Assembly (NCBI RefSeq): GCF_011440375.1
Contig: NZ_JAAOIR010000001.1
Span: 1,302,001 to 1,366,000 of the forward strand
Reading direction: 5' to 3'
Source of the DNA: Halorubellus sp. JP-L1
GTDB taxonomy: Archaea; Halobacteriota; Halobacteria; Halobacteriales; Natrialbaceae
DNA length: 64,000 nucleotides
Shown: positions 36,956 to 44,084 of the stretch, one piece after another
How the letters are laid out: the number at the start of each line of letters is the position of its first letter
Position numbering within the stretch: the stretch's first letter is position 1
Notes under the pieces: generated by a model
The model's input: the letters and a program-made list of their open reading frames with translations, nothing else
The model's database searches: none
What the model was told of the DNA's origin: nothing
Program-made: the position numbers and the translations under genes

Positions 36956-37090
36956 GAGAAACCGCCTCCGACAGTTTCTCGATGTTTTCGCGGCTCCGCC
37001 GCGAAAGGACGAGCGGCTCTACGAGAGTCGCTCGATATTCCCGGAAATCGAAGATTTCCGGGCGCTCGAAAAGCTCAGGAGAGCTTTTCG
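36956..37090 (-). terminator. Five consecutive hairpins at the icd 3' end
   Basis: Five inverted repeats follow each other at 36956-36980, 36986-37006, 37011-37033, 37040-37062 and 37067-37090. Stems are 7, 8, 10 (one G-T), 10 and 10 bp, about 27 nt apart. The last one includes the icd stop. A T-run TTTTTCTC follows on the minus strand. They may end or process the icd transcript. Confidence 0.55.
36969..36989 (-). repeat. Synonymous copy of the icd C-terminal codons
   Basis: On the minus strand GAAAACATCGAGAAACTGTC plus G encodes ENIEKLS, the same seven residues that end Icd at 37078-37098. The two 21-nt stretches differ at five sites, all third codon positions. Confidence 0.6.
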
Positions 37091-38352
37091 ATGTTCTCGA
37101 TGACTTCGTTCGCGAACTCGGTCGTGGAGACCTTCTGGGCGTCGTCGAGGTTGCGGGCGAAGTCGTACGTTACGACGCCGCTGGAGATGGTTTCCTCGAC
37201 GGCGTCGCGGACGAGCGTGGCGGCGTCCGTCCAGCCCATGTAGTCGAACATGAGTTCGCCGGAGAGGATGAGCGCGCTCGGGTTCGCCTGGTCCTGGCCG
37301 GCGCGCTTCGGGGCGCTGCCGTGGACGGGTTCGGCGAGGACGCGCGCGTCACCGAAGTTCGCGCCGGGTGCGATGCCGAGGCCGCCGATCTGGGCGCCCG
37401 CGGCGTCGCTGAGGTAGTCGCCGTTGAGGTTCGGCATCGCGAGGACGTCGAACTCGTCGGTGCGGAGCTGCATCCACTGGAGCATCGCGTCGGCGAGGCG
37501 TTCCTCGACCATGACGGCGTCCTCGGGGATGTCGATCTCGTCCTGGGTCTCCCAGAGCGAGTCGGGTGCGGCGAACACTTCGTCGTCGTCGTACTCTTCT
37601 TCGGCGACCTCCATGCCCCACTCGGAGAACTGGCCTTCGGTGAACTTCATGATGTTCCCCTTGTGGACGAGCGTGACCGTGTCGCGGTCGTGCTCGATCG
37701 CGTAGTCGATCGCTTTGCGGACGAGGCGCTTGCTGCCCTTCTCCGTGATGGGCTTGAGGCCGATGCCGATCTCGCCCTCGTGCATGACGTCGTCGAAGCC
37801 CATGTCGTCCTCGACGAAGTCCCGGACCTGCTCGACTTCGTCGGTGCCGGCTTCCCACTCGATGCCGGCGTAGACGTCTTCGGTGTTCTCGCGGAACGAC
37901 ACCATGTTCATCTCCTCGGGCGCTTTCATCGGCGACGGGACGCCGTCGAGGTAGTACGTGGGGCGGACGTTCGCGTAGAAGTCCAGCGTCTGGCGGAGCG
38001 CGACGTTCAGCGAGCGGAAGCCGGCGCCGACGGGTGTCGTGAGCGGGCCCTTGATGGCGACGCGGAACTCGTCGATCGCGCGGACGGTGTCCTCGGGGAG
38101 GTTCTCGTCGTAGCGCTCGCGAGCGGACTCGCCGGCGTAGACGCGCATCCACTCGATGTTGCGGCCGGTCGCGTCCGCGGCGGCGGAGAGCACCTTCTGG
38201 GCTGCCGGTCCGACGTCCTTCCCGATACCGTCCCCGTGAACGATGGGGATGATGGGGTTCTCGGGGATGTCGAGTTCGTCAGCCTCCTCGTCGACGACTT
38301 CGATCGGCTCGCCGTCCGACGGCACGTCGACCTTCTCGTACTCGTGGCTCAT
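37075..38352 (-). CDS. icd: NADP-dependent isocitrate dehydrogenase
   Basis: A 425-residue monomer of the dimeric NADP isocitrate dehydrogenase family, full length. IPIVHGDGIGKDVG near residue 34, the phosphorylation-loop segment GFRSLNVALRQTLDFYANVRP near residue 110, and the Mg/isocitrate segment NLNGDYLSDAAGAQIGG near 305 are seen. AEPVHGSAPKRAGQDQANPSA follows. It converts isocitrate to 2-oxoglutarate in the citric acid cycle. Start is the ATG at 38352. Its 3' end is followed by five hairpins and a synonymous copy of its last seven codons. Confidence 0.97.
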   Translation of the reverse strand: MSHEYEKVDVPSDGEPIEVVDEEADELDIPENPIIPIVHGDGIGKDVGPAAQKVLSAAADATGRNIEWMRVYAGESARERYDENLPEDTVRAIDEFRVAIKGPLTTPVGAGFRSLNVALRQTLDFYANVRPTYYLDGVPSPMKAPEEMNMVSFRENTEDVYAGIEWEAGTDEVEQVRDFVEDDMGFDDVMHEGEIGIGLKPITEKGSKRLVRKAIDYAIEHDRDTVTLVHKGNIMKFTEGQFSEWGMEVAEEEYDDDEVFAAPDSLWETQDEIDIPEDAVMVEERLADAMLQWMQLRTDEFDVLAMPNLNGDYLSDAAGAQIGGLGIAPGANFGDARVLAEPVHGSAPKRAGQDQANPSALILSGELMFDYMGWTDAATLVRDAVEETISSGVVTYDFARNLDDAQKVSTTEFANEVIENIEKLS

Positions 38353-38635
38353 AGTCGGTTAGATGGTCGGAATACCCGCCTAAAAGGGCTATCATTTGCT
38401 CGCGAGACCTGCGGTGTCGGGGAGTTCGCGCCGACTCACGGACCGGTCGGTGGGGTGGTTTTCACGGGTCGGTCACGGCGAAAACAGCGCACGGTCGCGG
38501 CGACGAGTTCCCCGGCGGCAGCGACGTGGTCGGCGCAACTGTGGCGACGACGGCGACGACGATAGCAGCGACGAATCAGCGCGACTGCGGCGACGTGATC
38601 GGCAGGCAACTGGCTTCGAGCGCGGCGTCGGTTCG

Positions 38636-38692
38636 GGCGTCGAACGGCGGGTCGGGCGTCGAACGGCGGATCGGGGTCGAGCGGCGGGTCGT
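38636..38692 (+). repeat. 19-bp tandem repeat, three copies
   Basis: Consensus GGGCGTCGAACGGCGGGTC repeats nearly perfectly; the third copy is diverged. Confidence 0.7.
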
Positions 38693-38872
38693 TCGCGGAC
38701 GACGGTCGGAATGTGGTGTGCGTGCGGTACCGGTCGGCGGTCGATGCTGGTTGGTGGTGTGGGCCCGGTCGGCTGCGGCGTGGCCTGCGCCGCGTTGGAC
38801 CGGGGGACGTGCGTGGTCGGCCACGACGTCTGCGTCTCCGTCGTGGGGTGGTCGGGGTTCGGTGCGAGTCGG

Positions 38873-39160
38873 CCGCGGTGCAGGCGGTTCACCGCGGGGG
38901 TCGCGGGTCGGCGTCGTGGTGTCGGTTCGAGTCTGTACGGTTCGTGGTTCCGGTCCGGGTCTGTGCGTTTCGTGGTCTCGATCGTCGGCTGTGCGAATTC
39001 GTGGGGTCGACCGCGGTGCGTGCAATTCACCGCGGGCGTCTCGCGTCGAGGTAGTCGGCATGCGGTACGGGCGGCCGCGGCGCAGGCAATTCGCCGCGGC
39101 GGTCGACTTCGTGCCGGTTCGGGTTCGAACGGTGACCGCGGTGCAGGTGATTCACCGCGG
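38873..39160 (+). repeat. Four hairpins with 8-bp stem and 9-nt loop
   Basis: Copies at 38873-38897, 39011-39035, 39075-39099 and 39136-39160 read CCGCGGTG-N9-CACCGCGG. The third reads CCGCGGCG-N9-CGCCGCGG, a compensatory T-A to C-G pair change. Loops are caggcggtt, cgtgcaatt, caggcaatt and caggtgatt. Copies 2-4 start 64 and 61 nt apart. Between copies 1 and 2 three 28-bp repeats (GTCTGTACGGTTCGTGG type, starting 38931, 38959, 38987) share part of the sequence. Confidence 0.8.
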
Positions 39161-39424
39161 GCGTCGTTGGTCGGAGGCCCGTTGGTCGGCGGTCGGTCGG
39201 TGCGTTCGTGGGTGTCGCCCGCTGCGTCGTGGTCGCGCGGACGACGTCACGGTCGTCGCAAGCGTATTGTCCGCATCACATCCAAGACAACAGTTAGCAC
39301 ACGTCAAGTACTTTGGGGCCGAATTGATCGTGGCCCACGACTCGACGCTCCCGCAGCCGGAAGTCCCGACTCCGGCCGAGCCCGAGCGGCAACCATTAAA
39401 TCGCCGCGGGCCGCGTCCCCGGTC

Positions 39425-40351
39425 GTGCAAGTCATCCTCCACGGCGGGGCCGGCAGCGCCCCCGACGACCCGGAGCCCAGACAGCGAGTGCTCGACGACG
39501 CCGCGGCAGCGGGCGCGGCCGCGGAGACGCCCCTCGACGCGGTCGAGACGGCTATCCACGAGTTGGAGTCGTCGCCGCGGTTCAACGCCGGCGTCGGCGG
39601 CGCGGTCCAGTCCGACGGCGTCGTCCGCACCGACGCTGGCGTCATGACCGACGACCGCGCGGCGGGCGCGGCGTGCTCGATGCCCGGCGTCGAGCACGCC
39701 GTCAGCGCCGCGCGCGTCGTCCTCGAGGAGACCCCGCACGTCCTCGTCTCCGGCGAGCACGCCGTCTCGCTCGCCGACGCGTACGGCGTCGAGACCGACG
39801 TCGACCTCCACACCGAGCGCACGCGCGAGAAGTTCGACGACGCCGACCCACCCTCGGGGTCGCCGCGCGAACACCTCGCGTGGCTCGCCGACCGGTTCGG
39901 CGGGATGGAGCGCGCGTCGACCGACCCAGGGAGCGCCGGCCGCGACGGGGACGACGAGTGTGGCCGCGACCACACCGACCACGACACGGTCGGTGCGGTG
40001 GCGCGCGACGGCGACCGGCTCGCCGCCGCGACGTCCACAGGCGGGCGCTGGTTCGCGCTCGCGGGTCGCGTCGGCGACGTCCCCCAGATCGGGAACGGGT
40101 TCTACTGCGCGCCCGCGGGCGGTGCGAGCGCGACCGGCGCCGGCGAGGACATCGCACGCACGACGCTCGCGCGACGCGCTGTCCGGCACGTCGAGGCCGG
40201 CCGCGACGCGGACGCGGCCGCCAGCCTCGCCATCGAGGAGTTCGGCGAACTCACCGGCTCGTCGGCGGGCCTCATCGTGCTCGACGCCGACGGCAACGCC
40301 GGGAGCGCGTACAACTCCGAGCGGATGCAGACCGCCGTGGCCATCGAGTAA
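39425..40351 (+). CDS. Isoaspartyl peptidase/L-asparaginase (Ntn hydrolase)
   Basis: A 308-residue Ntn-type asparaginase. It begins MQVILHGGAGSAPDD with the typical HGGAG. The autocleavage site is Asp-Thr in HTDHDTVGAVARDGD near residue 185, where the new N-terminal Thr becomes the nucleophile. STGG and GNGFYCAPAGGASATGAGED follow. It cleaves isoaspartyl dipeptides or asparagine. The GTG at 39425 was chosen because homology begins there, although the frame stays open far upstream. Confidence 0.9.
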   Translation: MQVILHGGAGSAPDDPEPRQRVLDDAAAAGAAAETPLDAVETAIHELESSPRFNAGVGGAVQSDGVVRTDAGVMTDDRAAGAACSMPGVEHAVSAARVVLEETPHVLVSGEHAVSLADAYGVETDVDLHTERTREKFDDADPPSGSPREHLAWLADRFGGMERASTDPGSAGRDGDDECGRDHTDHDTVGAVARDGDRLAAATSTGGRWFALAGRVGDVPQIGNGFYCAPAGGASATGAGEDIARTTLARRAVRHVEAGRDADAAASLAIEEFGELTGSSAGLIVLDADGNAGSAYNSERMQTAVAIE

Positions 40352-40704: not shown

Positions 40705-41601
40705 ATGAGCGACGTCGACCTCGACGCCGAGCAGTACGAGAAGCATCGCGAGGCCGGTGAGATCCTCGCGCAGGTACGCGACGAGGCAGCCGACCGCCTG
40801 GAGGTCGGCACGAGCTACCTCGAGATATCGGAGTGGACCGAGGACCGCATCCGCGAACTCGGCGGGACGCCGGCGTTCCCCGTGAACGTGAGCGTCGACG
40901 AGGAGGCCGCACACGGGGCCGCCGGCCCGGACGACGACCGCGTCGTCGGCGAGGAGATGGTGAAACTCGACATCGGCGTGCACATCGACGGCTGGCTCGC
41001 CGACACCGCCGTCACCGTCGACTTCTCGGGGAACCAGGAGCTCGTCGAGGCCGCCGAAGAGGCGCTCGACGCCGGCCTCGACGTCGTCGAAGCGGGCGTC
41101 GACGCGGGCGAGATCGGCGCGGCCATCGAGGACGTCATCGACGGCTACGGCTACAATCCCGTCGTGAACCTCACCGGCCACGGCCTCGGGCACTGGGAAC
41201 AGCACACGTCGCCGACCATCCCGAACCGCGCGGTCTCCCAGGGAGCGACGCTCGAAGCGGGCGACGTCGTCGCCATCGAGCCGTTCGCGACCGACGGCTC
41301 CGGGAAGGTCTCCGAAGGCCAGCAAGAAGAGATCTACATGCTGGAACGCGAGGCATCCGTCCGCGACCGGAGCGCCCGACAGGCCCTCGAGCAGATCACC
41401 GAGGAGTTCAAGACGCTCCCGTTCGCGACGCGCTGGCTGGACGTCTCGCGCCCCGAGATGGCGCTCCGCCGCCTGAAGATGAACGACATCGTCCACGGCT
41501 ACCCCGTCCTGAAAGAAGAAGACGGGTGCCTCGTCAGCCAACGCGAACACACCATCATCGTGACCGAAGACGGTTGCGAGATCACCACGCGCTCGCGATA
41601 G
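40705..41601 (+). CDS. map: Methionine aminopeptidase (type II)
   Basis: A 298-residue type II methionine aminopeptidase. Five metal ligands are present: Asp in VKLDIGVHI, Asp in WLADTAVTV, His in TGHGLGHWEQH, Glu in VVAIEPFAT and Glu in QREHTII near the C-terminus. The inserted helical part typical of type II enzymes follows VAIEPFATDGSG. It removes the initiator methionine from nascent proteins. ATG at 40705 fits the family start. Three 50-bp hairpin repeats follow the stop. Confidence 0.96.
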   Translation: MSDVDLDAEQYEKHREAGEILAQVRDEAADRLEVGTSYLEISEWTEDRIRELGGTPAFPVNVSVDEEAAHGAAGPDDDRVVGEEMVKLDIGVHIDGWLADTAVTVDFSGNQELVEAAEEALDAGLDVVEAGVDAGEIGAAIEDVIDGYGYNPVVNLTGHGLGHWEQHTSPTIPNRAVSQGATLEAGDVVAIEPFATDGSGKVSEGQQEEIYMLEREASVRDRSARQALEQITEEFKTLPFATRWLDVSRPEMALRRLKMNDIVHGYPVLKEEDGCLVSQREHTIIVTEDGCEITTRSR

Positions 41602-41641
41602 GACAGCCACCCAGAGTCACAGTCGACGCGATATCACTTCG

Positions 41642-41791
41642 GAAACGTCGACCTGGCGGTCGTCGTATGCTCGTGCGGCCACCTTCCCCCTGAAACGCCG
41701 ACCTGGCGGTCGCCGTATGCTCGTGCGGCCACCTTCCCCCTGAAACGCCGACCTGGCGGTCGCCGTATGCTCGTGCGGCCACCTTTTCCAA
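41642..41791 (+). repeat. Array of the 50-bp hairpin repeat, three copies
   Basis: Copies start at 41642, 41692 and 41742 with a period of exactly 50 bp. Each reads GAAACG[T/C]CGACCTGGCGG then TCG[T/C]CGTATGCTCGTGCGG. The inner stem CGACC-tggc-GGTCG is perfect; the next position is T-T in copy 1 and C-C in copies 2 and 3. Confidence 0.88.
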
Positions 41792-41867
41792 AAAATCGTG
41801 TTGCCGCCGTCACCCCAGTGCCGGCGGCGATTGGTCTGTCTTGGACACCCCCGTGCCCACCGATGCG

Positions 41868-42911: not shown

Positions 42912-42925
42912 CGCAGCCGACGCAC

Positions 42926-43125
42926 GAAACGACCCCCTGCCGGGAGCCGTACGCTCGTGCGGGCAGCTCCACTCCGAAACGGCTCCCTGACGGGAGACGT
43001 ACGCTCGTCCGGGCAGCTCCACTCCGAAACGGCGACCTGGCGGTCGCCGTATGCTCGTGCGGGCAAATACACCCAGAAACGGCGACCTAGCGGTCGCCGT
43101 ACGCTCGTGCGAGCAGGGGAGTCGA
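42926..43125 (+). repeat. Array of the 50-bp hairpin repeat, four copies
   Basis: Copies start at 42926, 42976, 43026 and 43076, again with a period of 50 bp. Copies 3 and 4 have a perfect 9-bp stem ACGGCGACC-N4-GGTCGCCGT. Copy 2 has CTCCC paired with GGGAG in place of CGACC paired with GGTCG, two paired substitutions. After the stem each keeps (T/C)G(C)TCGT(G/C)CGGGCA-like sequence. Confidence 0.9.
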
Positions 43126-43160
43126 CACGCCCTTGACACCCCACGCCGTAGCCGGACGCG

Positions 43161-44084
43161 ATGAGTGACGCGACGACGATGCGCAGGGTGGGTGCGCTCG
43201 TCCTCGCCGTGAACCTCGCGCTCGCCGTCGGGAAGACCGTCGTCTACCTCGACGGCGGGAGTCTCGCCGTCGGCGGCGAGGCCGTCAACAGCTTCGCGGA
43301 CGCCGCCTACAGCGTGTTCGTGATCGTCGGACTCTACCTCACCACGCAGCCGCCCGACTTCGAGCATCCCCATGGCCACGAGCGCATCGAGCCGTTCGTC
43401 GCGCTGTTCGTCGCGACCGGCGTGTTCGCCGCCGGCGGCGCCATCCTCTACCAGGCCGGGCAGGCGCTGCTCGCGGGCGAGACGACCGTCGACTTCGGGC
43501 TGTCAGCGGTCGGTATCCTGGTCGCGTCCGCCGTCACGAAGTACGTCCTCTATCGGTACGTGTACGCGAAGGGGCAGGAGACGCATTCGCCGGCGCTGAA
43601 AGCGGCCGCGCTCGACAACCGCAACGACGTCCTCACCGCGTGCGCGGCGCTCGTCGGCGTGCTCGGCGTCCGCGCCGGCTACCCACTGCTAGACCCCATC
43701 GCTGCGGGGTTCGTCGCGCTCGCCGTCCTCTACACGGGCGTCGAGATCGTCCGCGACAACGTCGGCTACCTCGTCGGGAGCGCCCCGCCAGAAGCGTTGC
43801 GCGCGGAGATAATCGAGCGCGCACTCGCCCACCCCGAGGTCGAGGGCGCGCACGACGTCGTCGCGCACTACGTCGGCCCGGAGGTCGACGTCTCGCTCCA
43901 CATCGAGGTCGAGGGCGACCACACGCTCTTCGAGGCCCACGACATCGAGACGGACGTGATGGAGGCGATCCGAGACCTCCCCGAGGTCGACGACGTGTTC
44001 GTCCACGTCGACCCGAAGGAACTCGGCGAGTGGAAGGCGGACGCGGACGTCGACCGGCTCGCAGAGGGTCGCCGCGAGGACTGA
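43161..44084 (+). CDS. Cation diffusion facilitator transporter
   Basis: A 307-residue CDF protein with about six membrane segments. Metal-binding acidic residues lie in NSFADAAYSVF near residue 43 and ALDNRNDVLTACAAL near residue 153. FEHPHGHERIEPFVALF carries the family histidine/glutamate stretch. The C-terminal cytosolic domain (about 215-300) has the ferredoxin-like metal-sensing pattern. It exports Zn2+, Fe2+ or Mn2+ in exchange for protons; the metal is unknown. ATG at 43161. Confidence 0.92.
   Translation: MSDATTMRRVGALVLAVNLALAVGKTVVYLDGGSLAVGGEAVNSFADAAYSVFVIVGLYLTTQPPDFEHPHGHERIEPFVALFVATGVFAAGGAILYQAGQALLAGETTVDFGLSAVGILVASAVTKYVLYRYVYAKGQETHSPALKAAALDNRNDVLTACAALVGVLGVRAGYPLLDPIAAGFVALAVLYTGVEIVRDNVGYLVGSAPPEALRAEIIERALAHPEVEGAHDVVAHYVGPEVDVSLHIEVEGDHTLFEAHDIETDVMEAIRDLPEVDDVFVHVDPKELGEWKADADVDRLAEGRRED

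Follow-up and report, generated by a model that had tools for sequence, protein, structure and literature searches.

Known systems with a comparable layout

Sponge RNAs of the CsrB/RsmZ type, found in Gammaproteobacteria, display one recognition hairpin several times, with single-stranded linkers between the copies. The intergenic sRNAs described in haloarchaea (Haloferax; PMC4983044, PMC6560208) lie between genes and are expected to have a promoter of their own. A locus of Halorubellus sp., located in the window (i.e. the whole stretch of 64,000 nucleotides that was analysed), resembles the former by its repeated hairpin and the latter by its intergenic location and the promoter proposed here. 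It also recalls a CRISPR array, as it displays directional 25-nt palindromic repeats, two of which are followed by gaps of 36–39 nt. A limited literature search found no described family with such a repeated-hairpin layout. We consider it slightly more probable than the contrary that this locus is a noncoding RNA gene, so far found in Halorubellus only, that would run on the minus strand from ~39280 to ~38650 and whose repeated hairpin would be the site of an RNA-binding protein, the RNA acting as a sponge or scaffold.

The locus and its hairpins

The setting of the locus is chromosomal. It occupies the gap between two genes:

37075–38352, minus strand: icd, isocitrate dehydrogenase (flanking gene; Pfam Iso_dh, 3e-88)
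39425–40351, plus strand: gene of the Asparaginase_2 family (flanking gene; Pfam Asparaginase_2, 8.6e-60)

A preliminary description of this DNA had treated 38353–39424 as gene-free. Such an interval exists but is somewhat narrower, as the divergent promoters of icd and asparaginase sit inside it, one at each edge. In a scan of the region with a matrix built from the tRNA promoters of the Halorubellus sp. genome, the asparaginase promoter (~39389–39402) ranks first and the icd promoter (~38379–38392), which is kept in Halorubellus salinus, ranks second. The claim that the region is non-coding is supported: the substitutions between the two species are evenly distributed over the three codon positions (29/28/27) and the indels (1, 2, 9, 16, 17 and 22 nt) mostly break the frames, so that a protein-coding reading is rejected.

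The gap contains four copies of a 25-nt unit:

39136–39160, minus strand: hairpin unit 4 (first on the proposed RNA), CCGCGGTG-AATCACCTG-CACCGCGG
39075–39099, minus strand: hairpin unit 3, variant, CCGCGGCG-AATTGCCTG-CGCCGCGG; same variant in H. salinus (L030:3027)
39011–39035, minus strand: hairpin unit 2, CCGCGGTG-AATTGCACG-CACCGCGG
38873–38897, minus strand: hairpin unit 1 (last on the proposed RNA), CCGCGGTG-AACCGCCTG-CACCGCGG

These units all match CCGCGGYG-N9-CRCCGCGG exactly and share one orientation. Only 0.01 unit would be expected from dinucleotide shuffles, and none of 100 shuffles reached four. The preliminary description was accurate on these copies, including their 9-nt loops (the GC stems being of 8 bp), the 61–64 nt that separate copies 2–4 and the compensatory change in one stem, which is the replacement of TG/CA by a CG/CG pair in unit 3 (39075). 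The loops are also similar among copies (RAYYRCMYR on the minus strand, for the eight units of both species); on the proposed RNA, the loop of the repeated hairpin is given as AAYYRCCUG. As the units resemble one another within a genome while most of the intervening linkers have diverged, the 25-nt unit itself seems to be kept.

Other elements surround or separate the units:

38821–38846, minus strand: additional conserved hairpin, CCACGACG-GAGACGCAGA-CGTCGTGG; in H. salinus, stem invariant and one loop change
38775–38793, minus strand: terminal hairpin GCGGCG-CAGGCCA-CGCCGC, i.e. a fifth copy, shortened and inverted; invariant in H. salinus
38914–38976, no strand assigned: imperfect tandem repeat with a 28-bp period, located in the unit 1–unit 2 linker; linker shorter in H. 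salinus
38629–38691, no strand assigned: 19-bp tandem repeat, 3.4 copies; outside the conserved block, where the alignment is poor

The 19-bp repeat had been reported and is real. Three 28-bp tandem units had also been proposed; this repeat scores 2.2 copies, and a third unit could only be a very diverged one. Elsewhere in the window, 50-bp tandem repeats including a 22-nt near-palindrome (ACGGCGACCTGGCGGTCGCCGT...) are found at 41589–41827 and 42923–43161, directly downstream of Peptidase_M24 and HIT genes. They belong to a dispersed family of the genus, with 30 matches in the Halorubellus sp. genome and 27 in that of H. salinus.

The loop of the terminal hairpin (38775–38793) is complementary to the loops of units 1–4, and this inverted copy shows a 12-bp perfect match to unit 3. 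The predicted duplex energy is -42 to -43 kcal/mol with unit 3 vs -27 to -37 kcal/mol with the other units, unit 3 being the best partner because of its variant base pair. According to these energies, a long-range pairing or a switch between the inverted copy and unit 3 is possible, and would explain why unit 3 alone carries the variant.

Conservation in Halorubellus salinus

The comparison within the genus involves two genomes, those of Halorubellus sp. (window) and H. salinus GX3. In the latter, icd and asparaginase also flank this locus, which contains four units whose order is unchanged and whose third is again the CG/CG variant. In the orthologue alignment of the two species, the stems are identical (64/64) whereas identity is 240/311 (77%) in the linkers and 24/36 (67%) in the loops; the probability of such a difference between stems and linkers arising by chance is ~6e-8. 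The loops differ by 11 transitions and 1 transversion vs 33 and 38 in the linkers (Fisher p 0.004). This excess of transitions could result from recognition of a purine/pyrimidine pattern, from G-U tolerant pairing or from mutation in exposed loops. Within two genomes, sequence covariation is limited to the shared pair of unit 3 and a few G-U changes. The change in unit 3 is symmetric and would suit a DNA palindrome as well; furthermore, the stem sequence is conserved beyond pairing alone, as would be expected of a DNA site. The spacing of units 1–4 differs between the species (138/64/61 in the window vs 91/81/63 in H. salinus) and is not in helical phase. The stretch 38400–38650 is poorly conserved.

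Strand, 5' domain and putative promoter

The features assigned to the proposed RNA and its upstream region are as follows:

39305–39320, minus strand: promoter-like box GGCCCCAAAGTACTTG (putative BRE and TATA) of the proposed RNA; invariant in H. salinus
39279–39285, minus strand: predicted transcription start, 25–30 nt downstream of the ACTT box
39247–39276, minus strand: speculative mini-ORF of 9 codons (MRTIRLRRP*) where the RNA is predicted to begin; invariant in both species
39186–39279, minus strand: conserved 5' domain, folding as a long imperfect hairpin; nearly invariant, with nearly the same fold in both species
38650–39280, minus strand: proposed RNA body, AC-rich and U-poor linkers with hairpins; AT skew +0.50, 3' end only tentatively placed

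Within the 64 kb, the A-over-T skew is strongest on the minus strand from ~38650 to ~39280: it reaches +0.50 over 540 nt (+0.42 in H. salinus) and never exceeds 0.32 elsewhere. It fades at ~38650, and its onset at ~39280 coincides with the predicted start, as does that of the block of near-complete identity, which begins at 39280. No transversion separates the two species over 39225–39280. On the minus strand, the two species share nearly the same minimum-energy fold of the 94-nt 5' domain; on the plus strand, their folds differ. The stability of this domain is no greater than that of shuffled sequences; its stem substitutions (A>G and C>T) keep pairing as G-U on the minus strand (U-A to U-G and G-C to G-U). 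The mini-ORF overlaps a hairpin and could be due to chance.

Folding predictions leave 50% of the linkers unpaired on the minus strand vs 24–30% on the plus strand. The whole region folds little or no better than shuffled sequences (z -2.0 here and -0.2 in H. salinus), and an argument based purely on RNA stability fails with such weak z-scores. Alternative local folds rival some of the hairpins, and the unconstrained consensus fold of the whole block shows more double changes on the plus strand, which is G- and U-rich. As the overall fold scores do not separate the strands, the strand call rests on composition, on the 5' domain and on the promoter-like box.

The haloarchaeal BRE and TATA motifs are given in PMC4983044 as CGAAA and TTWT. 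The GGCCCCAAAGTACTTG box lies 25–30 nt ahead of the conserved block, and the bases on either side of it differ in H. salinus. Its core, CAAAGTACTTG, has a single match in the 64 kb (0.07 expected). This conserved upstream box (CCAAAGTACTTG) is off-consensus for tRNA promoters and scores low on the tRNA-promoter matrix. It resembles CGAAAGGCACTTAC, the promoter of the SRP RNA in both Halorubellus genomes; 25 nt separate this CGAAAGGCACTTAC box from the start of the SRP RNA model. This likeness is suggestive of a promoter for the proposed RNA. A search for a terminator of this RNA found none.

Distribution outside the genus

The preliminary description had made its case depend on relatives that share the flanking genes. 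Within the genus, H. salinus keeps the hairpins; outside Halorubellus, many haloarchaeal genera have retained icd and asparaginase as a divergent pair, but there the gap between them is short or is taken up by different small genes, and it showed no repeated unit. In several related genera (e.g. L057, L054 and L049), this gap is filled by a small membrane-like gene of ~85 aa (MTPVVFLAVFCATMAAIAAIRLAL...) that is absent from it in Halorubellus. The possibility that the region is a remnant of this gene was rejected, as tblastn found nothing.

DNA searches and two covariance-model searches of 125 genomes of the family and 392 of the order recovered the locus in Halorubellus only, weak scattered matches aside; those of blastn were all short. 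With the hairpin model, no other multi-copy cluster was found outside the genus at a significant E-value: the best matches examined are isolated and chance-like, and one genome (G082) has a pair of weak matches 118 nt apart (E 0.037 each). The 5'-domain model scores 121–126 bits in Halorubellus, and no match elsewhere exceeds 33 bits. When named genomes were scanned for the pattern, only H. salinus GX3 and two isolated single sites from bacteria were retrieved. No unit was found on plasmids and viral contigs, nor any further clear site elsewhere in either Halorubellus genome.

A candidate RNA and its alternatives

Among the three roles offered by the preliminary description, a multi-hairpin RNA fits best, given the strand asymmetry, the conserved 5' domain and the promoter-like box. 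A function in partition or replication finds no support, as the setting is chromosomal and no Orc1/Cdc6 gene is near. A haloarchaeal replication origin was likewise rejected: the nearest sizeable Orc1/Cdc6-type match is ~250 kb off and below cut-off, and the full-scoring Orc1/Cdc6 genes are farther away or on other contigs.

The remaining role, a regulator-binding array, corresponds to the main rival, to which we give a real but minor chance: the 25-bp units would be directional inverted repeats recognised by a DNA-binding protein, which would act between the divergent icd and asparaginase promoters. The location between these promoters, the single orientation of the four units, the perfect sequence-specific conservation of both arms of the palindrome and the symmetry of the variant all agree with such an operator array. 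However, its spacing is neither conserved between the two genomes nor helically phased, the units lie roughly 230–750 bp from the two promoters, and no further clear site exists in either genome although a regulon would have some. It also leaves the strand-asymmetric AC-rich linkers and the conserved 5' domain unexplained. In another alternative, the hairpins would be regulatory elements of a very long icd 5' leader (~930 nt) starting from the same upstream box. Strand and direction are shared with icd, no clear terminator intervenes and a possible mini-ORF occurs at the 5' end, but icd has its own conserved promoter, the stretch 38400–38650 is poorly conserved, and among the haloarchaeal 5' UTRs cited in PMC4983044 the longest has 145 nt. 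Such a leader is improbable. A relic or selfish repeat, i.e. tandemly duplicated palindromes devoid of function, appears slightly more improbable still. The setting is rich in repeats (19-bp and 28-bp tandem repeats) and other dispersed palindromic repeats occur in the genus; however, the stems have remained unchanged (64/64) while their neighbours diverged by 23%, the number, order and variant of the units are the same in both species, and neither genome contains copies elsewhere.

For the noncoding RNA, strand, anatomy and stem constraint are supported by the comparisons above. The best reading is an RNA of ~0.5–0.6 kb transcribed leftwards, with both start and end predicted. It would begin with the structured 5' domain, followed by four copies of one hairpin along AC-rich, largely unpaired tethers and then by two more hairpins, the last of which, the inverted copy, could close the array or switch it by pairing with unit 3. 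We infer the transcript, its ends, its partner and its function as follows: each hairpin would be a recognition site for an RNA-binding protein, several molecules of which would be gathered by the RNA as a sponge or scaffold. As one element is repeated with free spacing, the partner would bind each copy separately, hence this proposal. A more specific version, in which a genus-specific archaeal sponge RNA titrates an RNA-binding protein through its four near-identical hairpins and in which the inverted fifth copy and the variant unit 3 control release or closure, is doubtful.

Comparison with known systems

The region 38300–39500 has no match in Rfam 15 at E-values up to 10, and none reaches the gathering score in the window. 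Archaeal RNase P RNA and SRP RNA were rejected as identities, as both are found elsewhere with high scores in both genomes. A CRISPR array was also rejected: here, the gaps are irregular in both species, the spacers are homologous and align between species, the repeat loops vary and there are only four units. Unlike CsrB/RsmZ-type RNAs, the Halorubellus candidate has AAYYRCCTG loops without GGA, long GC stems and an archaeal host; a repeated GGA loop motif is absent from the eight units, the single GGAC (L030:3199) borrowing its G from the stem. Like the haloarchaeal intergenic ncRNAs, the candidate lacks protein-coding signal, but it is longer than the intergenic sRNAs and carries repeated identical hairpins. 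Transcription of the locus would make it a previously undescribed RNA of haloarchaea whose repeated hairpins are arranged in the manner of bacterial sponge RNAs, and the hairpin itself would be a ready bait for finding its protein partner.
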